Of a stretch of 40,755 nucleotides of DNA, positions 2,108 through 25,574 are shown piece after piece. Each line of letters starts with the position of its first letter. Within the stretch, counting starts at the first letter, position 1. The notes beneath the pieces were generated by a model, which saw only the letters and a list, made by a program, of their open reading frames with translations, was not told where the DNA came from and did not search any database. The translations under genes were made by a program, and so were the position numbers. The DNA comes from a virus: positions 1-40,755 of IMG/VR virus record IMGVR_UViG_3300047463_000290, one strand, 5' to 3'.

Positions 2108-2620
2108 TTATGGTCCTACGTACACAGGCTGATCATTGTGCGTCACATCTGTATGAGACGCCGCAACATCTGTGTGTGTATCAGAATATGGTTCATCTTC
2201 ATGAGAATAGTCGGGCGGCGGTCCGGGCCCGTCAACGTGGTAGTCTCCATGATTGTCGCCATGTGCGGTTGTCGTATCGGAATGCGGCACGTCGTCATGA
2301 ACCGCATATTCGTTATTGTTTGTTCCGATATACCGAAGTTGTACGTTTCCTGTAGCCGCGCTCGTACCTGACGTATTGGACACCCACAACGAACCAGCTA
2401 CCGATCCGGTGCGTGCTGCAATTGACGCGGCGTTGAGTGTTCGCGCGTATCCACTTGCATCCACATACCGAAGACTGGTACCTTGAACCCAAATTGAGCC
2501 AATTGTGGCACCCGTAGCCAAACCATTGTTGCTTCCAGTGGCATACCATTCAACGCCAGTGCTGTCAACATATCGAATGGTATTACCGGACACCCACAGA
2601 CTACCTGCTGTTTTTGCCAT
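2108..2620 (-). CDS. Virion-type repeat protein with C-terminal His-x-Asp block
   Basis: A 170-residue protein in two parts. Residues 1-107 hold three copies of a beta-type repeat: GSLWVSGNTIRYVDSTG, GSIWVQGTSLRYVDASG and a degenerate GSLWVSNTSGT...LRYIG. This pattern occurs in small structural or fibre proteins of T4-like phages of aquatic bacteria. Residues 108-164 are a histidine/aspartate block in which every His is in an H-x-D triplet (nine in all: HDD, HSD, HGD, HGD, HVD, HED, HTD, HTD, HND), plus one YSD. Pieces such as HGDYHVDGPG and DVAASHTD recur almost unchanged in the protein at 22299-25574. It sits between a fibre-like gene and gp13 and lacks a clear Shine-Dalgarno. Virion location and modification of the block are inference. 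Confidence 0.7.
   Translation of the reverse strand: MAKTAGSLWVSGNTIRYVDSTGVEWYATGSNNGLATGATIGSIWVQGTSLRYVDASGYARTLNAASIAARTGSVAGSLWVSNTSGTSAATGNVQLRYIGTNNNEYAVHDDVPHSDTTTAHGDNHGDYHVDGPGPPPDYSHEDEPYSDTHTDVAASHTDVTHNDQPVYVGP
2129..2299 (-). repeat. His-x-Asp repeat block in the 2108-2620 protein (about 2129-2299)
   Basis: Nine H-x-D triplets and one Y-S-D in about 57 residues, with no histidine in the block outside a triplet. Spacing between triplets is irregular (0-8 residues), so this is a motif-dense segment rather than a strict tandem repeat. Sub-segments are shared with the glycine-rich fibre protein at 24807-24954, which suggests a mobile protein cassette. Confidence 0.75.
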
Positions 2621-2626
2621 ATTCTA

Positions 2627-4219
2627 TTACGTTGCCCACAAGTTAGAACCAACCGGAACGACAAGACGTGCTGCGGTGCCCGTATACCGCACCGCGCCGT
2701 TGACTGTAGACGCGTTATTGACCGTCAACGCACCATTCATGATAGCGGTGCCTGTTAACGTCGTGGTGGTAGACACACTCAATGCACCTGTGAGCGTTGT
2801 GTCACCGAACACACGGAACGCGGTCGAAGCACCACCGGAGACACCAATATTGGCGGTTTGTCCTGCGGCCACCAACAAACCACCACTGGCCGTCAACAGC
2901 GCAGTCACACCCAACGAACTCAACGCGTTTGCGGCACCTGAAATACCAAAGGTGCTCAACGCATTTGCCGCACCTGTCAGCACGGACGCACCAGAGACGG
3001 TTAACCCGGCGCCGATAGATGCTGCACCTGTCGTGGAAAGCGCACCCGTGACACTCGCACCGCCAAGCGCAGACAGCAATCCGGTGACACCCAATGTATT
3101 GAGCGCGTTGGCGGCACCCGTGATGCCGAATGTACCGAGTGCATTTGCAGAACCCGACACCCCGAGGTTGCCGATAACGTTTGCGTTTCCGTTGAAGAAT
3201 GATGCACCCGCAACGTGCAACGGATAGGAAGGTAGGACGTTGATACCGACACGGTTGTTGACGGTATCCACAAAGAGCACATTCGTGTCCACCGCGACGT
3301 TTGATGTGAACGTCGAAAGGCCGGACACCCCGAGCGAACCCCCGATAGTGGCCGCACCCGTGACGGAAAGTGTCGAGACAAGTCCAGACGGTGCCGCAAG
3401 AGGACGCCAGTAACCCGAACTCGCAGCATAGACATAGATAAGCGGAATGATCGTGCCTGCGGGCACATCCACATCGCCGGAACTTGTCTTGATGCGGTTG
3501 GCCGACAACGACCGATTATCGTCGTTCTTGAGCGTGATCTTTGCGGTTCCTGACTTGTTGTTGACGTAGAGGAGCTTGAGTCCTGTTGCGCCAAGGTTGG
3601 TGGGAGCTTCGACACCCGTCAGTTCGATATCCACCGACGCGTCGATGTTGAGCACCATCGCATTCGTGAGTCCACTGACGGTTAAGTCATTTTGCGGTGT
3701 TGTCGTGACAGTGGCCGCAACGATGCTGTCTGCACCCGTGAATACCGCGGCGCGACTATAGACGGTATTACCAGCAACAACGGTGTTGCTGACGCTGACA
3801 CCGTTCTGGAATGTTGCGCTATTTGCGACAGTGAGGGTGTTGTTAATCGTGGCGGCGGCATTTTGCAGCAGCGTAGTATTGATGAGCAGTGAACCGCCGT
3901 TGATGGTGGTGCCACCAACGGGATTGAGCACGGCGGTATTACTCTGAACCGTGAATGCGAGTGCAGATGCGTTGACGGTAACATTCGCACCAAACGTGGC
4001 GTTCCCCGTTAGGAACACTCCACTCAGGTTTGCAACGGTTTTTCCACCGTTAATCGATAGGCTGCTTCCCGTGTGAGACGTATTCCCGATGGTGAACGCC
4101 CCAATAGCGTCCCCCCCGACAATAACGGTATTGCTGTTCAGCAGTCCTATGATGACATTCGTCGTAGCGAGCCACTGACGGAATGTATTGGCAGTTGAGA
4201 GCGTATCGATTAACGGCAT
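2627..4219 (-). CDS. Tail-fibre-like structural protein with beta-repeat body
   Basis: A 530-residue protein. The N-terminus (TANTFRQWLATTNVIIGLLN, about residues 9-28) resembles the anchor segment seen at the start of many T4-like fibre and decoration proteins. The body is a run of Gly/Ala/Val/Thr-rich beta repeats of the form L-x-V-x-G-A-A-x-x-x-G; residues about 350-460 hold near-tandem copies such as SANALGTFGITGAANAL and AANALSTFGISGAANAL. A FVDTVNNRVGINVLPSYPLH segment near the middle resembles the 'VGIGT.P' linkers of trimeric fibre shafts. No catalytic or chaperone domain is visible. The gene begins ten bases after a CTAAATA element and ends six bases before the HxD-repeat gene, so the two proteins may work together. 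Specific receptor or position in the virion is unknown. Confidence 0.7.
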   Translation of the reverse strand: MPLIDTLSTANTFRQWLATTNVIIGLLNSNTVIVGGDAIGAFTIGNTSHTGSSLSINGGKTVANLSGVFLTGNATFGANVTVNASALAFTVQSNTAVLNPVGGTTINGGSLLINTTLLQNAAATINNTLTVANSATFQNGVSVSNTVVAGNTVYSRAAVFTGADSIVAATVTTTPQNDLTVSGLTNAMVLNIDASVDIELTGVEAPTNLGATGLKLLYVNNKSGTAKITLKNDDNRSLSANRIKTSSGDVDVPAGTIIPLIYVYAASSGYWRPLAAPSGLVSTLSVTGAATIGGSLGVSGLSTFTSNVAVDTNVLFVDTVNNRVGINVLPSYPLHVAGASFFNGNANVIGNLGVSGSANALGTFGITGAANALNTLGVTGLLSALGGASVTGALSTTGAASIGAGLTVSGASVLTGAANALSTFGISGAANALSSLGVTALLTASGGLLVAAGQTANIGVSGGASTAFRVFGDTTLTGALSVSTTTTLTGTAIMNGALTVNNASTVNGAVRYTGTAARLVVPVGSNLWAT

Positions 4220-4228
4220 AAGTGCATA

Positions 4229-4235
4229 TATTTAG
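4229..4235 (-). promoter_or_regulatory. Late promoter element CTAAATA before the fibre-like gene
   Basis: Minus strand: ACCTAAATATATGCACTTATG. The TAA stop of the upstream methyltransferase gene (4232-4234) is embedded in the element. Nine bases separate it from the start codon, too few for a normal leader with a Shine-Dalgarno. Confidence 0.55.
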
Positions 4236-5578
4236 GTTTGCGCGGCGATCATTCCCACCTCCAGATTCGTGCTGGTTGAAAGAATGGTCGGCGTTGGGAG
4301 TTGAGTTGTCTCACATAATCCAGTCAAACCCACCGATTGCTGCCAATCACTATACGCATAGGGAAACTGCACGGGGATTTCACCTAACCATTGACGAACA
4401 GTTGTCGCGTCTGCTGAAGACATCTCCAGCAGACGTGCGGGATTGTACAGGACGACGGTCGGCTTCCACGAGCGCCACGTTCCTGACTGGATTGTATCGG
4501 CCCAGAACTTTGCACGCAAATCCATCGGCTGCTGTGCGTGTTCAATGGCTTCAGCATTACTGTCCACTCCCGCAATACGAATATCCGGTCTGTATATAGT
4601 TAGACGACGAAGCAACATTCCATTTCCACACCCCAAGTCCAGCACCCGAGCGTTCTGTGGAATCTTATGATACAGCGCCTCGATCATCTCTTTGTGTGCT
4701 TGGCGCATTCCATCCGCATTCTTGAATCCGTTGTCAGTCCACCATGTCTTCTGTGGCTTGAAGTACGTACCCTGACGCTCGAACGTCTGTTTCGTGGGTG
4801 TCCAATCACTTCGCGTCGAAATTTTGAGAGCGGGCGACACAATCTCCGCAATACCAAATAGTCGCGACCACTGCACGGGCCAGTTCAAGATTTCGCGAGT
4901 CGCAATCATCTCTTCGATGAACCCATGCTTATATCCGAGGTCGTACATACGCTTTCCAATTTCCACGGACGCTTCGCATTGATGCGAACACGGCATGTGC
5001 GATACCAAACGAATACCCATCCAGCGAAACAGTGTCGAAGATTCTGGTGGTCCGTTTGGTGCCGTTCCTTCGTGCGTTTGCTCCCATGTGCTATCGACTT
5101 GCCCGACACCCCATGTCTTGTGGAACGCTGTGCGGCAACATTCTGGATATCCAAGAAGAGTCCCGAGCTTTTCGTTATTGTGCAAATCAAACGCATCGTG
5201 ATAATGTTCAGGGCGCACATACAGGACATGAAACGCATCCTGCGAACCCACCGTCGTGCCGAGATTGACAGACGAGTAATTGTTATTCTTGACTGTGCGT
5301 GTGTACGGAAGACAAACGATGCCGTGCGCTTGCGCCCATTCGACACACTGAATGAGCGTATCGGCACTATCTACCGTTGTGCGCGCCGCAGGACGCAATC
5401 CTTCAACAACAGACAGACGTTCAATCTCGTGCCATGCATTTGACGTAGCTGTGAAAATAGGGCGCCACCAGTCGCGCTCCACCATTCCTGCCCATGCCCA
5501 TCGAGTCCAATCCGGTAAAATGGGTTTCCAATCTACCGCATTATTTGTAGTCTGTGTGGTCACCGTGTCGATCTCCAT
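4232..5578 (-). CDS. Two-domain protein: Cys-box (DUF483-like) domain plus SAM-dependent methyltransferase
   Basis: About 448 residues from the ATG at 5578; a GTG at 5617 with GGAAG upstream would add 13. Residue numbers here use the GTG. The N-terminal half has two cysteine boxes, GYPECC (about 156-161) and PCSHQC (about 209-214), a pattern I associate with DUF483-type domains of unknown chemistry. The C-terminal half is a class I methyltransferase: VLDLGCGNG (motif I, about 325-333), then GVDSN (about 350-354, SAM ribose-binding acidic loop) and VVLYNPARLL (motif IV region). The substrate is not evident. The gene overlaps the 3' end of the radical SAM gene, so the two are translationally linked and probably act on the same target. 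I infer a role in modifying a virion peptide; DNA or small-molecule methylation is not excluded. Confidence 0.75.
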   Translation of the reverse strand: MEIDTVTTQTTNNAVDWKPILPDWTRWAWAGMVERDWWRPIFTATSNAWHEIERLSVVEGLRPAARTTVDSADTLIQCVEWAQAHGIVCLPYTRTVKNNNYSSVNLGTTVGSQDAFHVLYVRPEHYHDAFDLHNNEKLGTLLGYPECCRTAFHKTWGVGQVDSTWEQTHEGTAPNGPPESSTLFRWMGIRLVSHMPCSHQCEASVEIGKRMYDLGYKHGFIEEMIATREILNWPVQWSRLFGIAEIVSPALKISTRSDWTPTKQTFERQGTYFKPQKTWWTDNGFKNADGMRQAHKEMIEALYHKIPQNARVLDLGCGNGMLLRRLTIYRPDIRIAGVDSNAEAIEHAQQPMDLRAKFWADTIQSGTWRSWKPTVVLYNPARLLEMSSADATTVRQWLGEIPVQFPYAYSDWQQSVGLTGLCETTQLPTPTILSTSTNLEVGMIAAQT

Positions 5579-6878
5579 GTCTATCGCCGTGTACTTGACT
5601 ATTGTCGGCGTGATCACTTATCTTCCGAAGCGGGGAATTCGCGTTTGCCTCTCGATCATGAATAATTTGAACAAGAGACGGTAGTGTCGGTATTGATTGT
5701 TGCGACGACCAGATTCGATAGGCTTCTTTTTCCATCTCTATTCGATTCGGATAATCGCACAACGGTACAATCCCGACCGCACGCAAACGCTTCGCACCTT
5801 CCGCGAAGAGCTTTTTATATGTCGCACAATACGATGATCGCATCCGCCAATCGTTATTACTGCCTTCACCGGGGCATTGTCCATAACACATGAGCCAATA
5901 TTCGCACCCCTGACAACCACCATGTTCTTGTGGGGTCACATAAAGTGCGAGTTGACGCTCAAAGTGTTGCGAACCCGGCCATCCGATGAAGTTAGTATAC
6001 CCATACTGCGTATCACCGCTTCCTTCTGCTGGCAGCCAGTTGACACCATCTTTATTTGTGCGGGAGCAATGCGACGGTGAACCGTCATTCTCAATACCCT
6101 TGACGGCACTGGTATTCCACGGATCGCATGGCTTCCAATGACACACCACTTGATCCGCATTTTTGTGCTCGGGATCGAGTAATTTAATGATCTCCTCTAA
6201 CTTTGTGATTTTGATATTGGTGAACGGCTCGTCCCAAAGTTGTATGAGTCGATCTGACAATTCGTCTGTTGGCAAATAAAGAGAGTCCGCTTCGTGATCC
6301 AGTTCCATCACATGCAGATTGACGTGCTTGACGCCTCGCGCGTCGAGTTCATGCAACCACGCAAGAAAGCGTGGCCAGCGTTCTTTGCTCGCGTTGCCGG
6401 CGTGCAGAGTGATGATGAACGACGGCATCAAATGCGGGTATTCTTTCGAGCGTTCGATCAGTCGATTGATTGCCCAATGCGTGCGTGCTGTCTGTTTGCG
6501 TGTGGCTTCGAGCGTTCCTGCCCAACGACTATCGTTCAATTCATCTGGCCCATCCAGCGAGATGCCGATGTGCGTGCGGTACTTGATGAATGCCTCGATA
6601 TGTGCGTCCGTAATCAACGCGGCGTTCGTCTGAAGCCCCGAGGAGCCGCTCTTCTTGTGAGCAATACTCAAAAGCTCTTCGATGTCTTTGAGGGGGAGAA
6701 TGAGGCACTCGCCACCAAACAGAGAAAAATGATCTTTGGGTGCGAGTTTATCAATAGATGCCAAGACGGCTTCACGGTCGTACCGATGGGTACGCTGTTT
6801 CTGCCGCATACCTTCTTCATAGCAATAGGTACATTGAAGCTGGCAACTGACTCCAACTGGGCGGACTTCAATACTCAT
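5541..6878 (-). CDS. Radical SAM/SPASM peptide-modifying enzyme with a His-x-Asp tail
   Basis: A 445-residue protein. The radical SAM cluster motif CxxxCxxC is at C12, C16 and C19 (CQLQCTYC), with FGGE at 54-57 (the GGE motif) and GISLDGP at 105-111. The C-terminal cysteines fit a SPASM domain that holds auxiliary Fe-S clusters: C251 and C271, then C322-x2-C325-x5-C331-x3-C335 and C351 (GCQGCEYWLMCYGQCPGEG). Radical SAM/SPASM enzymes typically install crosslinks or epimers in ribosomal peptides or mature sulfatases. Residues 422-445 contain five H-x-D triplets (HAD, HGD, HGD, HGD, HTD), the same motif as in three virion proteins here. The start has AAGGG five bases upstream. I see no RRE recognition domain and no separate precursor peptide. 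That the HxD proteins are substrates is inference. Confidence 0.88.
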   Translation of the reverse strand: MSIEVRPVGVSCQLQCTYCYEEGMRQKQRTHRYDREAVLASIDKLAPKDHFSLFGGECLILPLKDIEELLSIAHKKSGSSGLQTNAALITDAHIEAFIKYRTHIGISLDGPDELNDSRWAGTLEATRKQTARTHWAINRLIERSKEYPHLMPSFIITLHAGNASKERWPRFLAWLHELDARGVKHVNLHVMELDHEADSLYLPTDELSDRLIQLWDEPFTNIKITKLEEIIKLLDPEHKNADQVVCHWKPCDPWNTSAVKGIENDGSPSHCSRTNKDGVNWLPAEGSGDTQYGYTNFIGWPGSQHFERQLALYVTPQEHGGCQGCEYWLMCYGQCPGEGSNNDWRMRSSYCATYKKLFAEGAKRLRAVGIVPLCDYPNRIEMEKEAYRIWSSQQSIPTLPSLVQIIHDREANANSPLRKISDHADNSQVHGDRHGDRHGDHTDYK

Positions 6879-7109: not shown

Positions 7110-10100
7110 CTACTCGTCGAGCGCGATAGCACGGAAGTTGCGCACGCGTGGAATAATGGTCGTATCGTCGCTGGCCATCACCACCTTGACGGCGAACACC
7201 TTGAAGCGATCCGTTGTATCCCCGCTTGCGTCAAATGCCCGATTGTTGGGCGTGCGGAACTCGAACTCACGGAACTGGTTCGGTCCGTTGCTCTTGACCG
7301 AATCGTTGGTGACTTGCGTCATGAGACGCCAGTTCTGATCCTCGAAGCGTGCGGTGTCTGCGGTACCCGGCAGCACCTTGTAGTAGACGTAGAAGTTCGT
7401 CCCCGCTGGGCGCACCGCATCAAAGTATACCTTGATATCGCGGGCGTCAAACCCATCGGCCAACGTTACCTGACGCGTGAAGTACCGTGCTAATCCATTC
7501 CCCGATGACGTGAAGTCTTCACTGTGATACAGCATCGAGGCGCCGTTATTGGTATCCGAGTCCGGCACCGTGATTGTTGGCGATGTGATGTAGCCGCTAC
7601 CTGCACTCGTCACAACCACACCCGTCACCCTACCGCTGGCGTTAGTGCTGCTCACACCAGAAATAACGGCATACGCGGCGGCGGTTTCACCAACATTGCT
7701 GGTGCTAATCGTCAGTGACAAGTTTGCATACGTCGCGTACGCGTTTGCAGAACGAGTATCTGCGGGAAGTGCAGTTGTAGTAAATGAGGTGTCGTTTGCA
7801 ATTGTCGCGACAGTCACAACAAGGTTGCCACCGATAACTACATCACGTCCAACGATCAATGTCGAAAGGAACGCGGTACCAGAACCCGTCACCGTATTTG
7901 ATGACGTGCTACACGAAACGGTACCAGTATACGCTGCTGTATTGGCGTATCCCGTTCCCGGCTTCGTGATGACGAACTCGGTGTTTGACAATCCCATGTT
8001 GTTGATGAGATGACGGATACCCACGACGTTCATCTTCTTCAAGTCAATCGACGGCGCAACATCCGTGCTGCGCGTGGTCAGCGTGATCAGGGCATCAATC
8101 GTGTTGGCAGAGATACCATTCACCACTGTTCCTGTTGGTGCAGAGGTGCTGATGGACGGGTAAAAGACCGGCACATCACTCTCGAACTGTCCTTGCACAA
8201 ACGACCGTGCGGCCAATGTGTATTCTTGGTTCGGGTAGACATCATATGCGACAGCAACCGCCGCATCTTCCGGCTTCACCGCAACGCTGTATGATGTTGA
8301 CGTGGTGTTCGGGAACACTGTTTCATACGGATAGAACACCAAGCTATCCAACGTCTGCGTCTGTGTTGGAAGAATGCCTCGCGCAGAGAGAATGCCTGTA
8401 TTTGCGCCGTTGTCTACATTCCATGTCGCGCGGTTCAGACGGAATGCCAAGTCTTCAAACGGCGATTCCGTCCACGTCGAACCATTCTGCGACTTGAAGA
8501 AGCTACCCGCATACGGCTGCTTCGACACCTTTTGTGTCGTGCCCGGAATGGTTCCGCCAAGTTCCGCCGTCCAGACTGTGTATTCCGCAGAGTCGGAACG
8601 CACAACCACCGCGTATTCGACACCCGGCATCAAATGCACGAGCGACGGGAACGTGAACCGTGTATAGAACTGGCTGTTGCTGAATGCACTGACGACATCC
8701 GTATCGGATACCGTATTGACGGCATCTGGCCGAAGCGTGACCGATGCATCACCCGATGCAGAAATTGTCGGCACCAACTGATGCGACGATGGATAGCCGT
8801 TCACCACCGGACGAAGTTCAACGGTGACGGGGATGTCGAATGCAGGTTTGGATGCAAACGCCAGATCCAACGACTGCACCATGACACCTTGTGGATACCG
8901 TGCCGCATCCACAAGGAATGTTTCGGCAAGCGGGTCCGCCCATCCTTCTGGGCACGCAGTATAAGTGCCGTTGTCGTAGAGACGTGTTTCGCGAACCCCA
9001 CGACGTGTGACATTCACAGTCCGGCTCGTGACAGAGAAGTTTTGTTGTGTTACGATTAGCCCCGATGAAACATAGTTTGTTTCAGCGGTCGTAGTCGCGG
9101 AGGCAATATCGTTCGTGTTACTATCGGTGAGTCGGAACATCCGAGCGCCTGTGGCGAACTGACCTTCCTGAAGATGTACAACACCCGCGCACGTACCAGC
9201 ACCCGCAGCCGTGACGGTGCTGTTGGCCAAGAATCCTTCAGCGACCAATGCACCGATGCTGTAGATAGTTTCACCCGCTGTGATGTCGATCAGCGTGCTG
9301 CTGTTGATTACCGCAGTCTGATTTGCGGTGAAATAATTCGTAATCGTCGCACTCTGTCCCGCACCCGGGCCACCAACAAAGTAGATCACCGCACCATTCG
9401 CGACCTTTGCGTCAGTCACGTCCAGATCCAAACGCAAGTTGTTTGTGCTGTAATCGCGCACCACACCAGAGACGATGACAGCAGAGTTGACGTTTAACGA
9501 CGCTACAACTGAGTTACGTCCCGTTGCAGGCACCAACAAAGTGGCTCCCGCAGAATTCGTACCAGAATCTTTTGCGTTCTTTTCTGGGCGCAAACTACCT
9601 GCACGAATCGCATATGGAATTGCTTCGTCCGCATCTGCGTCACGGTTTGCACGGACCACCTTCAAGGTATAGGCAACCGTGTTTCCGCTATATCGTGGCG
9701 TGATATCCGCAACTGTGACGGCCGTCAACGTAAAGAGATTCGCAGTAGTGAGCGTAACCGGCGCGGTGCTCAACAGTGTCGCAACGGTATTGTTCGAGGT
9801 TGCGCTGATATAGCGGTCGAAAATATTGACACCCGATTCTACGCGCACCAACTGATTGGCAAGAAGCTCAAAGTCGAACTCCGTGCCGTTGCCGGTAATC
9901 GTCGCTGAAGCCGATGCGGTATTGACCGTGCCGGTGAAGGCTTTCTTCACATAGACAGTCTGTCCAATATAGAAAGTGGGCGCATCCACTAAATCAACGG
10001 CATCAAGACGCAGTGTGTTCGCTTGCTGTACATATTTCTGTACGTCGGTACCGTCAAAGAATGGATAGAGGTTCGCGGCTGGGCGCAATCCACTTGCGGC

Positions 10101-15746: not shown

Positions 15747-15753
15747 TATTTAG
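15747..15753 (-). promoter_or_regulatory. Late promoter element CTAAATA before gene 8
   Basis: Minus strand: CACTAAATACGATG, 36 bases before the gene 8 start. The TAA stop of the upstream gp7-like gene (15750-15752) lies inside the element. Confidence 0.65.
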
Positions 15754-18700
15754 TGAGTGTCCGTGTGATAGTCGCTGTGGCTACTTTCTGGGGCCTGATC
15801 ACCGTGACCATTCTGGTCGGCGTGATCGTCATGACTATTGCACGCCGGATCATTACAAGCGGGATCATTACAACCGGGATCGTTACAACCACCATCATCA
15901 CCGTGATCGGAATAGTAGTCGCTATATCCGTATTCATCACTATAGCTATCATTAAACGTATAATCACTATGCGGAGCATCACAATGCCCCTGATCACAGT
16001 GTGATTGATCACAGTGTGATTGATCACAGTGTCCGTCACCATGATCATCGTGTGCGGCGTAGTCTGTGTGGCTCGCAATATCAACGTGACTATCACCGTG
16101 ATCGGAATACGGCGGTGTTGTCGGACTTGCAGATGCGGACGGACTGACAGAACTGGACAACGAACCCGACGGCGAAATAGACGCGGATGGGCTGACCGAA
16201 CGCGACACAGAACTCGACGGACTGATCGACCGAGATGTCGAACTAGACGGCGACAGCGAACTCGACGGACTCAACGATGCGCTCAACGAACTCGACGGAC
16301 TCAACGAAGCCGATATCGAACTGGATGGGCTGACTGAACTGGATGGCGACGTAGACCGCGATGCTGACGACGACGGGCTGACAGACGCACTCAACGAACT
16401 GGATGGGCTGAATGACCGTGATGCGGAGCTTGACGGACTCACCGAACTCGACGGACTCACCGAACTCGACGGACTGACTGAGGCTGAACTTGACGCCGAA
16501 GGGCTGACTGAACTGGACGGACTCAACGAGGCCGACGGACTCACAGACGCCGATGACGATGCCGACGGTGAGAACGACGGCGATGGACTCAAGGAGTTTG
16601 ATGGACTGACAGATGCCGACGCAGAACTACTTGGGCTGACTGAACTGGACGGGCTGACAGACTGTGACGTTGAACTCGACGGCGACAGCGACCGCGACAC
16701 AGACGCCGACGGACTGACGGACGCCGACGCGGAACTTGACGGACTGACGGATGCTGACGGACTCACCGACCGTGACACGGACGCGGACGGACTCACCGAT
16801 GCAGATGCTGAACTACTCGGGCTGACAGAGGCCGAAATTGAACTGGACGGGCTGACAGAGGCCGACGGGCTGTTAGAAATTGACCGCGACTTGCTCGCCG
16901 AGGGCGATACAGAACCCGATGGGCTAACAGACGCCGAGACACTGCTCGATGGACTGACAGAGGCTGACGGACTGACGGAGGCCGAGGGACTGACAGACCG
17001 CGACTTGGAGCTTGACGCTGAACTGGACGGCGACACCGAGCGCGACGGCGACAATGATGCCGATACTGAACTCGATGGGCTGTGTGAGCTTGACGGACTG
17101 AACGACGCAGACGGGCTGATTGACCGCGACGTGGACGCGGACGGACTCTGCGATGCCGACGGTGACACCGAAGCTGATGGACTCTGTGACGCGGACGGAC
17201 TCTTTGTCGCCGATGGGCTGGCGGACGCTGACGACGAACTCGACGGGCTCACCGATGCAGACGCAGAACTCGATGGTGAAACAGATGCCGACGCAGAACT
17301 CGATGGACTAAATGAATGTGACGCGGACGCAGACGGGCTGAGAGATGCAGACGGTGATTCTGATGACGAACCAGCAACCACAATCGCGCTCTCAACGGTG
17401 CTGCTCACGTTGACGGTAATATCCGTTGTGCTGACAAACTTACCATACGGCCGGAAGCCGGCGGGATGTAGAATCTTCAACAAGATACTACGATACCGAT
17501 CAAACGACTCGGCCGCTTTGACAACATACGTGTAGTCGTTGTAGTAGTCGCCGTCCTGAAGCCGTGTCGTCGAACTGGTGAATCCCTTGTTTGTCAAGAA
17601 CTCGCCGGGATAATTCGTCAACGCACCAATGACCGGCACGAGTGTTGCGTCAGTGCCCGTGCCCCCATTTGCCCGTTCTACCGTAATCGCAATCGAATTT
17701 GGATCACTGTAGAGCACGCCGGTATTCCGCACCCGCACCCGCGCGACTTGTCCGACACCCTGCACGACATCAAGATTCGCGTTTGCAAAAAGTTGCGTGA
17801 CGCGGCCGCTTGTTGGCACGACAACATCGGCGGTGTTGCTGTAATAGAACAGCGTCTGCACGCGTGCATCCATGCTGTCCACATCCACAATCGGCGGCAC
17901 CGCATAGCGACTGCCGATAGACGTGAGCGCCACGGTATTGATCGTACCGTAGGAAGTGATGGTGCGCGGATAGATCGTCCGAATACGCCCGAGCGCGTAG
18001 GTGCCGTACGTGTTCGCTACGCGTGTTGGTGCGGTCCCGTAAATTTTGAGTACCGTGTTACTCTCGATACTCTTGACGACAACATCGTATCCCGAAGAGG
18101 AATTCCCGACACGAAGATGGGCGTTTGCAATCAACGTGCGCTGGAACAGCGTGTTTGCGCCGATAATGGTGTCCGTGCCGTCTGTCGTGACGGTGCCCAG
18201 TTGTGCGTTCGCGTAGTCCTGCTTGATCAACAGGCTGGTGGAAAGTTGATTCAAATTCGCAGTGTTGCGCAAATACAACTTCGTCGCACCACTGGTATGC
18301 GTCAGGTTGCCTGCAAGATCCCCCGCAAAGTATCCAACCGTATTGGACGTAATCGTCGCGGTGAGCACCGTCGTCGTATTATCGAGGGGACCGCCAATGA
18401 CAAATAGTTTGCCGGTATAGCCCAACACGGACGACGCATTGTGATTAAAGAACGGTGCGACAGACAGGTTATCAACGAGCACCGCTGCATTCGCCAATTC
18501 AGCGGTCGTATTCGCATCGTTCGTCCACACCCACGGCGTGTAGAACGGTCGCTGTTCTGCGGCAGAGAAGATGGTCCCGACAGCGGTGTTCTGATCGATA
18601 ATCAGACTGTAGACGTTCGCTGCAAAACTGCCGCTCGCGCCGGCGGATAACGTCAGCGACGTGTTATTCTGAACAGATGCGATAGTGCCGACCGTATTCG

Positions 18701-19946
18701 CAGAATCGTTCCCGACAAGTAGCGTTTCACCGACATACAATTCGGTGGTGAACTTCGTGCCGACACCAGTTACGACGGTGCAACCACTGGTGGTCGATGT
18801 GGTGCCTGTGAGAATGATTCCGAGATTGACACTGACAGCAGTTTCATAGTTGGTATTTGCCACATCGACATCAGCAAACGTATCGATGATGATATCGAGT
18901 GGAATGATCGAGGTGGCGTTAGACAGAGACGCGACGTTGCCTGATGCTCCAGAACCCGACGCACTGTAGAACTGCAACGGCTCTCCGACCGTGAACCCTT
19001 TACCCCCGCTGTAAATCGTGATTCCGCTGATTGCCCCGTTCGAGACGCGTTCGACGACACCGTATGCACTGTAGCCACCACCACGTCCCGGCCCTTCCGA
19101 CACGACCACAAGGTCGCCATTCGCGTAATTGCTTCCACCACTTCCGACCGTAATCTGTGTGATGACGGGAAGAATACGTGTGGTAATGACCTTTTCCGTG
19201 CCGCGTGTATCGACGTTGTGGAGTTCTGCGTTCTCTTCAAACTGTCCACTAACGCTACCATACAACAATGACAGTTCATGCACTACGGTGCGCTGTCCGT
19301 ATTCGACGCCGACAACGAACGTGGTGACGCGCTCGACAATCGCTTCGGCGATGCCGTACGTATTAGAGGTGGAAACCACGCGTGCGCCCGTATAATACGT
19401 CGCGATATCTTCAGAGGTATAGCCGGTATTGAGCGGTGCGCTGACTTTCAGGGTTTGCGGGGCGGACCACGTCGCACTGGAGGCCGCAAACACGTCATCA
19501 CGCGGAAAGTAGACATCCGCGTCTTGATTGAAGAAGACACGGAAGAACCACTTGATGCTGCTTGGCGTGCCCTTCTGTTGATAGAACGCACGCAGACTAC
19601 GGATGAACCAGTCGGTTGACACGTAGCCGTATTGCGGAAACTCTTTGGCAAACTTTGCGAGAAAGTGTGTGCGGAATTCGTCAAGGGTTGTCGCGGTATC
19701 GAGATAGTCGAAGAACTTTCCCGCTTCGTACAGCGGGCCACCAACCGCATCAGTGACGGTGGTGCTCACCGAAGATGGACCGAATCCCGGTGTAATAGAG
19801 GTCTGGGATGTCTCGCGTTCCTGCTCCAAGAAGTGCAGAAACGCCGTGACAAATTCTACAAACGCCGGATACTCGGCTTCTACGAAGTCGGGAATCGCGG
19901 TTTTGATGAGGTTGTAGAATTGCTGTCCGGGCTGGTATTGGCGCAT
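15750..19946 (-). CDS. Giant gp7-position baseplate protein with Ser-x stalk and His-x-Asp tail
   Basis: A 1398-residue protein in three parts. Residues 1 to about 858 are a conserved T4-like wedge-associated protein: ALEYP-like start ([20 protein letters not shown]), [44 protein letters not shown], and near the end [42 protein letters not shown]. Residues about 859-1278 are an almost strict Ser-x-Ser-x run ([15 protein letters not shown] type). Residues 1280-1398 hold 16 H-x-D triplets, four YSD, one FND, and Cys-rich [16 protein letters not shown]. The position between genes 6 and 8 is that of T4 gene 7, but I do not claim homology to gp7. The stalk and tail follow the natural C-terminal HPAG segment, so they look like later additions. 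A weak GGTAAG precedes the ATG. Confidence 0.75.
15753..16109 (-). repeat. His/Tyr-x-Asp and Cys-Asn-Asp block at the C-terminus of the giant protein
   Basis: Codes residues 1280-1398. All 16 non-terminal histidines are in H-x-D triplets. Four tyrosines are in Y-S-D and one phenylalanine in F-N-D. There is a tandem run of four HCD units ([18 protein letters not shown]) and three CND units. The DNA of the first HCD units repeats nearly exactly (TGATCACAGTG on the plus strand), a sign of recent local duplication. Confidence 0.8.
16116..17373 (-). repeat. Ser-x dipeptide stalk (about 420 residues)
   Basis: Serine occupies every second position almost without exception, giving S-P-S-S-S-V and [10 protein letters not shown] units of 18 and 30 bases. 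One clear break is SPSATKSPS. The variable position is Pro, Ser, Ala, Val, Thr, Leu, Arg, Gln, Ile or Phe. A matching segment exists in the gene at 22299-25574. The likely role is an extended spacer, perhaps O-glycosylated, between the baseplate-bound part and the HxD tail. Confidence 0.8.
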
Positions 19947-22298: not shown

Positions 22299-25200
22299 TT
22301 ATACGCCATACGGCGGTTCGTCTGGGGTCGATCCGCCACCATCTGGAGTTGATCCGCCACCATATGGCGATTGAATTTCATCTTCGGTTGTGGTTCTTAA
22401 TGTGTCCACGGGTGGCGTATCGAGAACATGTGTTGTTGGATTGAGCGCAGCATCTCGGGCGGACAGAATTTTTAATTCCGTATCGACTGCCGCCAAATCT
22501 TCCTCACGCGTCCGTTTTACTTGCGCCAATTCCTCACCCGTTAACGGTTCGCTCACGTATAATCCATCATAGAACGTGTCATCATAATCCCGCGTGCGCA
22601 CATCCCGACGCAGTTCCTGTGCGTTGAACGAGACGTGAATCCACGACAATTCTGGAGCAGACGAATAGTTCAGAATCAACTGGTCAAACTGAAGATTTTT
22701 GGCGATGTAATCCGCCACTTCATAGAGTGTGGTGGGTGTCTGATTGTTCAACTGAATGTCGGCGGCCTCACCCTTCTCATGCTGACTGATGCCGTTATTG
22801 ACTTGACGGAATGCACTCACAATTGTGATATTGGGATATGCCGCCTTTAATGGACCAAGCACGTTCGCGCACAACAATGACAGGTTATATACCACATCGT
22901 CGGCAAGTAAGCCTCCCTGTGGTGTGATCCCCATCGCGGCTTCTTCTGCCAAAGACGCCGGTGGTGGCTCTGGTGCTGGTGCAGGTTGCGGGAACTCCGT
23001 TGGTAGTGGTTCGGCCACGACTGGTGGTGCCGTAACAAATAACCACGGATACAGGATGCGGCGTTCCCAATAGTAATTGTCGTTTTCTGACCACCCGTAT
23101 TGCGACGGTCCCACATTGACAAGATTCGGATTGAGGCTGCCCCATCCCTCAACGCGACCAATAATCTTGACCATGTAGTAGTCGAGCACTTGTCCACGAG
23201 GCACAAACGAGTACACTTCTCCATTCGGTCCGTCACCCACCCGCGTACGCTGATACCATCCAGCAGCTTGCGCCTCATCGCGATGATAGGCGCGCTTCTG
23301 AAACGCCGCCAACACCGATCTCAATACATACTCTGGATCATATGGGTTTTGTGGACCCGGCGACGGCGATGGTGATGCCGATGATGAACTTGACGGACTG
23401 CGTGAGGCCGACGGGCTCACCGACCGCGAGACAGACGACGACGGGCTTTGCGACCGCGATTGAGACGCGGACGGGCTAACGGACGCTGATGTCGAACTGC
23501 TTGGGCTTCGTGACGCCGACGGACTCTGTGAACTGGACGGGCTGAGCGACCGTGAGGTGGAACTCGACGGGCTGAGTGACGGTGAATCTGAATTAGACGG
23601 GCTAACAGATGCCGAAACGGAACTGCTTGGACTTACTGAACTGCTCGGGCTGACAGACCGCGAGGTAGAACTCGACGGACTCTGTGAACTCGACGGACTC
23701 TGTGAACTCGATGGACTCTGTGAACGTGACGTAGAACTTGACGGGCTGATAGAGGGCGTCGGGCTTGTGGACGCTGATGTTGAACTACTCGGACTGACGG
23801 AGGCCGAGGTTGAACTTGACGGGCTAACAGATGCCGACGGGCTAACCGAAGCACTCGTTGAACTTGACGGACTCACCGAGGCCGACGGGCTGATGGATCG
23901 TGATGACGAACTCGACGGACTCACCGAGGCCGACGGACTGACAGACGCCGATGTGGAACTGGACGGCGACACCGATGCCGATTCTGAACTCGACGGACTC
24001 ACCGAGGCGGACGTTGAACTACTTGGACTCACCGACGCTGACGTTGAACTACTTGGGCTGACAGAGGACGATGGTGATACTGACGCCGATGCAGAACTCG
24101 ACGGACTCGTGGAACTGGATGGCGATATGGAGGCAGATGTTGAACTACTTGGACTGAATGACGCCGATGTGGAACTCGACGGACTGACTGAACTTGACGG
24201 ACTCACCGACGCCGACGCGGAACTCGACGGACTCACTGACGCGGATGTGGAACTGGACGGTGAGACGGAGGCCGACGTGGAACTGGACGGGCTGACAGAC
24301 GCACTCGTCGAGCTTGACGGACTTACTGAGGCCGACTCAGAACTTGACGGACTCACCGAACTGCTCGGACTAACAGACGCCGACAATGACGCCGACGGGC
24401 TCACCGATGCCGACGGACTCACCGACGCGGATGTTGAACTTGACGGCGAGACTGACGACGACGGTGAAACCGAAACCGACGCTGATGCCGACGGACTGAC
24501 TGACGCAGACGGACTCACCGATGCGGAAAGAGAACTGGATGGGCTGACGGAACTCGATGGTGAGGTTGAAAGAGATACCGACGCCGACGGACTCACCGAG
24601 GCCGATGGGCTGACGGATGGTGATGTTGAACTGGACGGACTCTGACTTGGTGTGTCCGTCACAACAAAGTTAGCCGTCGAATTAAATGTGTGAATGGTGT
24701 AGGAGCCGCTGGTCGTGACAGTGCCGCCAGTCGCCGTCATGGTGCCGGTGATATAGCGGATGATGACGACACCAGATCCGCCCGTACCACCCGCAAGTGG
24801 CGTAATGTCGGAATGTGCTACGTCGCTATGCGGCGTTGTGCTGTCGCTGTGTGAGTCGCTATGTGGTCCTGAGTCGTCGTAAAAACCATCACCCGGCCCG
24901 TCCGCGTGATAGTCGCCGTGACTATCGCTGTGTGATGCTGCTACGTCCGAATGCGCGGTGCCCGGATTGTTGCCAGCACCACCACCGCCACCACCACGAT
25001 TAACGGTGCCTGCGGTACCTACAGCACCCAGACCACCTGCACCACCGCCGCCGCTACCAGCACTACCAGCAGCACCTGTGTTGACCGCACCACCACCGCC
25101 ACCACCCGCATACGTAACCGAGGCGCCTGTGATAGACGACGCCGTGCCTGCACCGCCCGCACCGCCCGTATTACCAGACGCCGTTGCACCAACAGCAGAC

Positions 25201-25574
25201 GCACCACCACCACCGCCACCCGCTACCGCAGCAGTACCACCCGCGTATCCTTGCCCGACGGTATTCGCACCACCCGCACCTGTGCGCGAACCACCACCAC
25301 CGCTACCACCCGTTCCACCACCAGCCGAAGCATTCGTGGTGTTTGCACCAAACCCACCACCGACTGATGTGATGCCGTTAAAAACAGAGTTGCTCCCGAC
25401 ACCAACGGCGCCACCACCGCCGACGGTGACGACATACGTACCGACGCTGACGGACACATTTCCAGACAGATATCCACCAGCACCGCCACCACCGGCGCTG
25501 TTCGCGCCGGCGCTAACAGTGTTGCCACCACCACCACCGGCACCGATAATCAGATATTCAACATTGGCTGCCAT
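22299..25574 (-). CDS. Glycine-rich fibre / Ser-x stalk / M15 peptidase fusion with an internal His-x-Asp block
   Basis: A 1091-residue multidomain protein. Residues 1-206 are a glycine-rich domain (EYLIIGAGGGGGNTVS, GGGGAGGY) like receptor-binding tips. Residues 207-256 are a His-x-Asp block (eight H-x-D and one YDD). Residues about 257-300 return to the glycine domain (GGSGVVIIRYITG). Residues about 310-738 are a Ser-x stalk. The rest has the M15 zinc peptidase motif SQHEKGEAAD (His/Asp near 931-938) and WIHVSF (about 973-978), the SxHxxGxAxD and WxHxS ligand pattern of DD- or L,D-endopeptidases. It ends with proline/glycine repeats. It probably degrades peptidoglycan during infection, next to the spike genes. 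A GAG lies upstream of the ATG; the TAA of the spike gene is in the promoter-like GTAAATA. Confidence 0.8.
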   Translation of the reverse strand: MAANVEYLIIGAGGGGGNTVSAGANSAGGGGAGGYLSGNVSVSVGTYVVTVGGGGAVGVGSNSVFNGITSVGGGFGANTTNASAGGGTGGSGGGGSRTGAGGANTVGQGYAGGTAAVAGGGGGGASAVGATASGNTGGAGGAGTASSITGASVTYAGGGGGGAVNTGAAGSAGSGGGGAGGLGAVGTAGTVNRGGGGGGAGNNPGTAHSDVAASHSDSHGDYHADGPGDGFYDDSGPHSDSHSDSTTPHSDVAHSDITPLAGGTGGSGVVIIRYITGTMTATGGTVTTSGSYTIHTFNSTANFVVTDTPSQSPSSSTSPSVSPSASVSPSASVSLSTSPSSSVSPSSSLSASVSPSASVSPSASASVSVSPSSSVSPSSSTSASVSPSASVSPSASLSASVSPSSSVSPSSSESASVSPSSSTSASVSPSSSTSASVSPSSSTSASVSPSSSASASVSPSSSVSPSSSTSASFSPSSSTSASISPSSSTSPSSSASASVSPSSSVSPSSSTSASVSPSSSTSASVSPSSSESASVSPSSSTSASVSPSASVSPSSSSSRSISPSASVSPSSSTSASVSPSASVSPSSSTSASVSPSSSTSASTSPTPSISPSSSTSRSQSPSSSQSPSSSQSPSSSTSRSVSPSSSVSPSSSVSASVSPSNSDSPSLSPSSSTSRSLSPSSSQSPSASRSPSSSTSASVSPSASQSRSQSPSSSVSRSVSPSASRSPSSSSSASPSPSPGPQNPYDPEYVLRSVLAAFQKRAYHRDEAQAAGWYQRTRVGDGPNGEVYSFVPRGQVLDYYMVKIIGRVEGWGSLNPNLVNVGPSQYGWSENDNYYWERRILYPWLFVTAPPVVAEPLPTEFPQPAPAPEPPPASLAEEAAMGITPQGGLLADDVVYNLSLLCANVLGPLKAAYPNITIVSAFRQVNNGISQHEKGEAADIQLNNQTPTTLYEVADYIAKNLQFDQLILNYSSAPELSWIHVSFNAQELRRDVRTRDYDDTFYDGLYVSEPLTGEELAQVKRTREEDLAAVDTELKILSARDAALNPTTHVLDTPPVDTLRTTTEDEIQSPYGGGSTPDGGGSTPDEPPYGV
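23360..24645 (-). repeat. Ser-x dipeptide stalk of the M15 fusion (about 430 residues)
   Basis: Serine at every second position ([17 protein letters not shown] type), like the stalk at 16116-17373. In the units I inspected the Pro-Ser-Ser-Ser core is mostly written CCN-TCN-AGT-TCN in both genes. AGY and TCN serine codons cannot interconvert by one base change, so the two stalks probably share one ancestral unit. Confidence 0.8.
24807..24954 (-). repeat. His-x-Asp block inside the glycine-rich fibre domain
   Basis: About 49 residues with eight H-x-D triplets (HSD, HSD, HGD, HAD, then HSD four times) and one YDD. No histidine lies outside a triplet. Flanked on both sides by glycine-rich sequence, so it interrupts that domain. 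The stretches DVAASHSD and HGDYHADGPG closely match the protein at 2108-2620. Confidence 0.75.

Follow-up and report, generated by a model that had tools for sequence, protein, structure and literature searches.

Blocks of His-x-Asp triplets in viral tail proteins accompany a radical SAM/SPASM enzyme and suggest protein cross-linking by viruses

The window analyzed here, a virus contig of 40,755 bases with T4-like baseplate genes, encodes three proteins with dense blocks of His-x-Asp (HxD) triplets together with a radical S-adenosylmethionine (SAM)/SPASM enzyme and a protein with a DUF483-like domain. The block proteins all lie on the minus strand. The carrier at 2108-2620 starts with the repeats GSLWVSGNTIRY and GSIWVQGTSLRY, which are followed by 9 HxD triplets (2132-2299). 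A baseplate-wedge-like protein (15750-19946; match to phrog_17744, baseplate wedge subunit, E=6e-31) has a Ser-rich linker and a C-terminal block with 16 triplets (15759-16100). A Gly-rich (PF21722), endolysin-like protein (22299-25574) holds 8 triplets (24807-24953) inserted among Gly-rich repeats, and a Ser-rich linker comes next. A preliminary description of the window had reported 33 HxD triplets in these proteins, accompanied by YSD, YDD and FND and with almost no block histidine outside a triplet. Our counts agree: the blocks alone hold 9 + 16 + 8 triplets, the additional triplet types are present (YSD, FND and also CND in the block of the wedge-like protein), and 9 of 9 His in 2108-2620 as well as 16 of 17 in the C-terminal block of 15750-19946 sit in triplets. 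The endolysin-like protein has its 8 triplets in a single block and one isolated HRD outside it. Long Ser-rich linkers of the SASVSPSSS type adjoin the blocks of 15750-19946 and 22299-25574 and were also seen in a viral fragment from elsewhere (L244).

The HxD content of the three proteins departs strongly from binomial expectation (p=2e-10 for 2108-2620, 2e-15 for 15750-19946 and 3e-11 for 22299-25574). Shuffling the residues within each block gave on average 1.8, 3.9 and 0.3 triplets versus the observed 9, 16 and 8, and the observed number was never matched in 5,000 shuffles of any block. The triplets use mixed codons for His and for Asp, and their middle codon varies. It is therefore at the protein level that the pattern is kept, and a recent DNA repeat is ruled out as its source.

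The enzyme (5541-6878, minus strand) matches Pfam Radical_SAM above cut-off (E=5e-13). C12, C16 and C19 of its CxxxCxxC motif, the auxiliary set C322-x2-C325-x5-C331-x3-C335 and also C246, C251, C271 and C351 do not vary among 21 relatives, confirming the earlier assignment as a radical SAM/SPASM protein with auxiliary cysteines. Its last 23 residues contain five HxD triplets (HADNSQVHGDRHGDRHGDHTD; 5550-5612, minus strand), which come on top of the 33 and had been overlooked. Most phage copies of the enzyme possess such a HGDHxD-like tail. In a tree of 108 proteins all HxD-linked enzymes form one clade with a Shimodaira-Hasegawa-like approximate likelihood ratio (SH-aLRT) support of 96, and the sole row labelled 'other' inside this clade (L158) is fragmentary and comes from an HxD contig. 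At loci L013-L017 (e.g. L014:10001-13129) two tandem copies of the enzyme are encoded, one of which has a long tail of repeated HGDHTD with up to 24 triplets.

The preliminary description had proposed that HxD blocks of other phages be sought and their co-occurrence with this enzyme family be tested, and the two proved to be near-exclusive companions in both directions. Starting from the enzyme, an HxD protein was found near 34 of 37 relatives, versus 0 of 112 control loci with other radical SAM enzymes (L033-L066, L069-L146); the one open reading frame (ORF) flagged among these controls (L078) is an irregular His-rich frame and not an HxD block. Viral loci found via relatedness of the enzyme encode a separate HxD block protein in 27 of 28 cases, the exception being an 8 kb contig (L019). 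Among cultured phages only the three Thermus phages Cumys, phiMa and phiLo gave good matches. All three encode HxD proteins, with 54 (Cumys), 53 (phiMa) and 58, 104 and 75 (phiLo) H-x-D or H-x-N triplets, and in Cumys and phiMa the repeat protein stands directly before the enzyme. In cellular replicons an HxD protein lies by the enzyme in 4 of 6 cases: Scytonematopsis, Paenibacillus harenae and a second genome of the Paenibacillales have one, as does a Halomicrococcus plasmid, where it is located near a baseplate J gene. The exceptions are a cyanobacterium (L354) and a Halorussus plasmid (L368).

Starting from the blocks, two DNA-pattern scans, each for four HxD triplets, yielded 78 viral loci with diverse blocks, and the same radical SAM family was present on the contig in 73 of them. 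Fifteen of the 78 were on contigs already tied to the enzyme; the others carried it in 58 of 63 cases (47/50 plus 11/13). By comparison, the enzyme occurred on 3 of 37 control contigs with low-complexity, antisense or sub-threshold matches (Fisher p=6e-18, with contigs that are partly non-independent and in some cases close relatives). Two of these three (L224, L287) resemble real modules and the third (L189) has a broken enzyme gene. The block shuffles, together with the near-constant lack of the enzyme beside these 37 matches, rule out chance or low complexity as the origin of the blocks. As for the diverse loci lacking the enzyme, the block lies at the contig end in L196, L266 and L291, and L175 is a short ORF on a 27 kb fragment, with about 2.2 kb between it and the fragment end. 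The remaining genes of L244, a 4 kb fragment, correspond to those that follow the HxD gene of the window, which would put the enzyme beyond the fragment end. Divergent enzymes missed by the sequence search came to light in the scans as well. Phages with HxD blocks and no radical SAM gene, and enzymes mostly without HxD proteins, had been named in advance among the observations that would speak against a functional connection; the former are almost absent and the latter rare.

We analyzed the rule behind the triplets in 90 non-redundant blocks (16,146 residues, 2,838 His). Asp stands at +2 of 92% of the His and Asn at +2 of 5%, values that are partly circular because the blocks were chosen on H-x-D/N. 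The 1,009 Asp/Asn without His at -2 are free of this bias, and their -2 position shows an excess of Phe (5.4 fold), Tyr (4.4 fold) and Trp (3.4 fold; p=1.5e-108 for the rule), while no other residue exceeds 1.5 fold. Conversely, 35% of Phe/Tyr/Trp have such an Asp/Asn at +2 versus 6-11% at all other tested offsets. An initial test of the +2 position for Tyr, Phe and Trp over all Asp had given only a modest signal relative to other offsets because most Asp are already paired with His; it became clear once limited to unpaired Asp/Asn. Thus, the first residue of the triplet is aromatic, as had been supposed, and the rule extends to Phe, Tyr and Trp. The lack of overlap between triplets was considered as a sign of discrete rings and dropped, as the spacing mostly follows composition. 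Two variants were observed: in L025, L028 and L029 (blocks at about 9066-10001), which form one enzyme clade, Asn takes the place of Asp at the end of over half of the His triplets, and L255 and L012 contain Trp-Ser-Asn triplets.

Known three-residue cyclophane enzymes link residue i to residue i+2, and the published pairs are Trp-Arg/Asn/Asp, Phe-Asn, Phe-Ser, Tyr-Asp, His-Ala and His-Arg (PMC11002830). As read from the protein sequences, the aromatic-x-Asp/Asn pattern is the substrate rule of these synthases: an aromatic residue at i and a residue with a beta carbon at i+2 are encoded beside the enzyme, as in triceptide substrates. Likewise, the triceptide enzymes XncB, OscB, MscB, YxdB, HaaB and YhhB are SPASM radical SAM proteins located beside repeated aromatic-x-residue triplets, and the triceptide pairs Tyr-Asp, Phe-Asn and Trp-Asn/Asp also occur in the HxD blocks (PMC11002830). 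The differences are that triceptide substrates are small precursor peptides whereas the blocks sit on long tail, fiber or surface proteins, where triplets number up to about 100, that His-Asp dominates here, that a DUF483 partner is present, and that the product is so far a prediction.

An AlphaFold2 model of the enzyme (predicted template modeling score, pTM, 0.80; parts of the SPASM region of low confidence) has a radical SAM barrel and a SPASM fold that align over about 325 residues to ChlB and anSME. These are the closest solved folds (ChlB: Z 25.9 over 324 residues, 3.1 Å, 19% identity; anSME: Z 25.6). A paper cited by PMC12636437 calls ChlB (PDB 9gm3, 9gmc) a multiple cyclophane synthase in its title; ChlB acts on a short leader-bearing precursor and is described with a fused hydroxylase partner, whereas here a DUF483 partner is found instead. 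The next nearest folds, CteB, SuiB and TigE, are all peptide-modifying enzymes. By sequence, the best match among solved proteins is anSME (E=1e-21), which also modifies a protein residue; its target differs, and no sulfatase is encoded near the window enzyme. Docking of the enzyme tail in its own active site was not seen in the model, where the tail has a predicted local distance difference test score (pLDDT) below 50. With respect to named families, the two best scores were those for AmcB, which is cyclophane-forming, and for the sulfatase maturase, both far below cut-off (AmcB 65.5 of 425 bits; anSME family TIGR03942 64.2 of 349.45 bits), and YhhB (47.8 of 445 bits) and GrrM/OscB (40.7 of 310 bits) were missed as well. 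The His-Xaa-Ser (Hxs) system consists of a His-x-residue repeat protein and two radical SAM genes. Its repeat ends in Ser, in contrast to the Asp seen here, and membership in HxsB (TIGR03978) was rejected at 23.8 bits against a cut-off of 370.

In the commonest HxD carrier, two or three repeats of the GSxWVEGxxLHYxD type stand N-terminal to the block, and the N-terminal repeats of 2108-2620 recur in homologues from Cumys and a haloarchaeal plasmid. Other carriers are the long phiLo proteins and non-phage proteins in Scytonematopsis and Paenibacillus harenae. With lengths of 170 to 1,400 residues (window) or up to 802 (phiLo), and mostly with folded N-terminal parts, the carriers are not the small leader-bearing precursor peptides typical of triceptides. 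The triplet block is a portable cassette on unrelated proteins, which points to the enzyme as their common feature. Gene order is conserved, too. A fiber-like protein ending in LVVPVGSNLWAT (2627-4219, minus strand) is encoded directly before the carrier 2108-2620, and a PxGxxxW C-terminus was present in 45 of 52 products encoded directly upstream of such carriers versus 0.5% of all ORFs. The Halomicrococcus plasmid keeps this order of PxGxxxW gene and carrier. Gene order and family matches suggest that the carriers are virion proteins.

The gene at 4232-5617 (minus strand) encodes a DUF483-like domain with a GYPECC motif fused to a class I methyltransferase; inspection of the alignment suggests that its true start is probably the ATG at 5578. 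The match to PF04467 (E=8.5e-4, 19.8 bits) is below the Pfam gathering cut-off of 25, and we call the protein DUF483-like because its homologue in Cumys (31% identical) is annotated as DUF483. The preliminary description had listed a Cys-box methyltransferase here. The class I methyltransferase domain is indeed present, fused to the N-terminal DUF483-like domain. It is the DUF483 part that is the conserved partner: it was found in 48 of 50 contigs (in the other two the enzyme sits near the contig end) and is fused to the enzyme as one protein in Paenibacillus harenae. Many copies carry the methyltransferase domain, which the Thermus phage copies lack, so that a role of methylation is weaker than first thought. 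A sequence search found no solved-structure relative of the DUF483 partner.

Together, these data suggest that many bacterial and archaeal viruses cross-link their own tail proteins, using a chemistry until now known only from small peptide natural products. That the triplets are enzymatically modified is, in our judgement, very probable; that this modification is a cyclophane is probable. We favor, with fair assurance, a self-contained protein-maturation module made up of one or more HxD carriers, the enzyme and the DUF483 protein, in which triplets are converted to cyclophanes. The enzyme would recognize His (or Tyr, Phe, Trp)-x-Asp (or Asn) in flexible tail or fiber segments and most likely bond the aromatic ring of the first residue to the beta carbon of the third, so that three-residue cyclophanes form in a row, each with a mass change of -2 Da. 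Such a row would stiffen the segment, probably at the host-contacting tip of the fiber. The probable task of the DUF483 protein is to present the substrate or assist the enzyme; where a methyltransferase domain occurs, it may contribute methyl groups, and the HGDHTD tail of the enzyme is probably self-modified or aids substrate binding. Whether this amounts to a widespread virus system that writes tens of His-Asp (and Tyr/Phe/Trp-Asp/Asn) cyclophanes, in ladders that carry or shape a host-binding tip, we regard as evenly poised.

Several observations weigh against cyclophane formation. His-Asp is absent from the published pairs (PMC11002830), the enzyme misses the cut-offs of all named cyclophane synthase families by far and was rejected as a member of any of them, and anSME fits the model as well as ChlB though it performs another reaction. 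Co-occurrence indicates a shared role and is not proof that one component acts on the other, and two enzyme + DUF483 pairs have no HxD protein nearby, one in a cyanobacterium (L354:6987-9180), where matches to the HxD pattern were no commoner than in a reversed control, and one on a Halorussus plasmid (L368:6001-8206). The fold of anSME, which oxidizes Ser or Cys in a peptide, the methyltransferase domain on many copies and the unpublished His-Asp pair would all suit a different radical reaction on the same triplets, such as oxidation or epimerization of Asp or its activation for methylation, with no ring between residues 1 and 3. We consider this unlikely, since the restriction of position 1 to His, Tyr, Phe and Trp suits a ring cross-link and is unexpected for chemistry on Asp only, and since the Thermus phages lack a methyltransferase. 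The two-way co-occurrence strongly supports the earlier proposal that the phage modifies its own tail or fiber proteins by radical SAM chemistry, and the cross-link itself is still a prediction.

His and Asp are common metal ligands, and the preliminary description had raised the alternative that unmodified HxD blocks bind metal. They might do so for virion stability or to supply iron to an enzyme with another target, and the HxD tail on most phage enzyme copies would agree with this. Yet Phe and Trp, which are no ligands, follow the same +2 rule, the carriers differ in fold and have only triplet and enzyme in common, and diverse blocks without the enzyme are nearly absent; as the main explanation, metal binding is quite improbable. 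More improbable still is that the module modifies DNA. This was suggested in 2024 for the radical SAM/DUF483 module of Cumys and phiMa (PMC11437467), with reference to homologues near deazapurine DNA-modification genes in some cyanobacteria. It is the same module, with an enzyme 37-38% identical to that of the window, and the cyanobacterial L354 without an HxD neighbor is in line with the proposal. However, the top matches among solved proteins are mostly peptide-modifying enzymes, and a protein of 53-54 triplets directly precedes the enzyme in both phages. Moreover, the Scytonematopsis and Paenibacillus modules adjoin an HxD protein, with no DNA-modification gene seen among the neighboring ORFs. 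We found no mention of HxD repeats in the available part of PMC11437467.

Phages that modify their own virion proteins are already known. We found no literature on phage HxD proteins with radical SAM enzymes; virion-protein modification by phages and cyclophane chemistry are each known, and their combination would be new. If triplets are cross-linked as we propose, radical SAM cross-linking enzymes would gain a new class of substrate in viral structural proteins, which offer about 10 to 100 sites, the His-Asp pair would represent a new bond type, and radical cross-linking would serve virion structure rather than a small natural product. It would also give a published module of cultured Thermus phages an alternative reading, account for a widespread group of proteins that mostly bear the annotation hypothetical today, and could yield a genetically encoded route to stiff cross-linked peptides.

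The same reading would give DUF483 a functional context, and other His-triplet tails may likewise be targets of DUF483 modules. In a Pyrinomonadaceae metagenome-assembled genome (L127:8756-13195), a different radical SAM enzyme adjoins a DUF483-like protein and a protein with a C-terminus of HDRD/HDRE repeats. These repeats are His-x-Arg triplets, and His-Arg is a published cross-link pair of YhhB.

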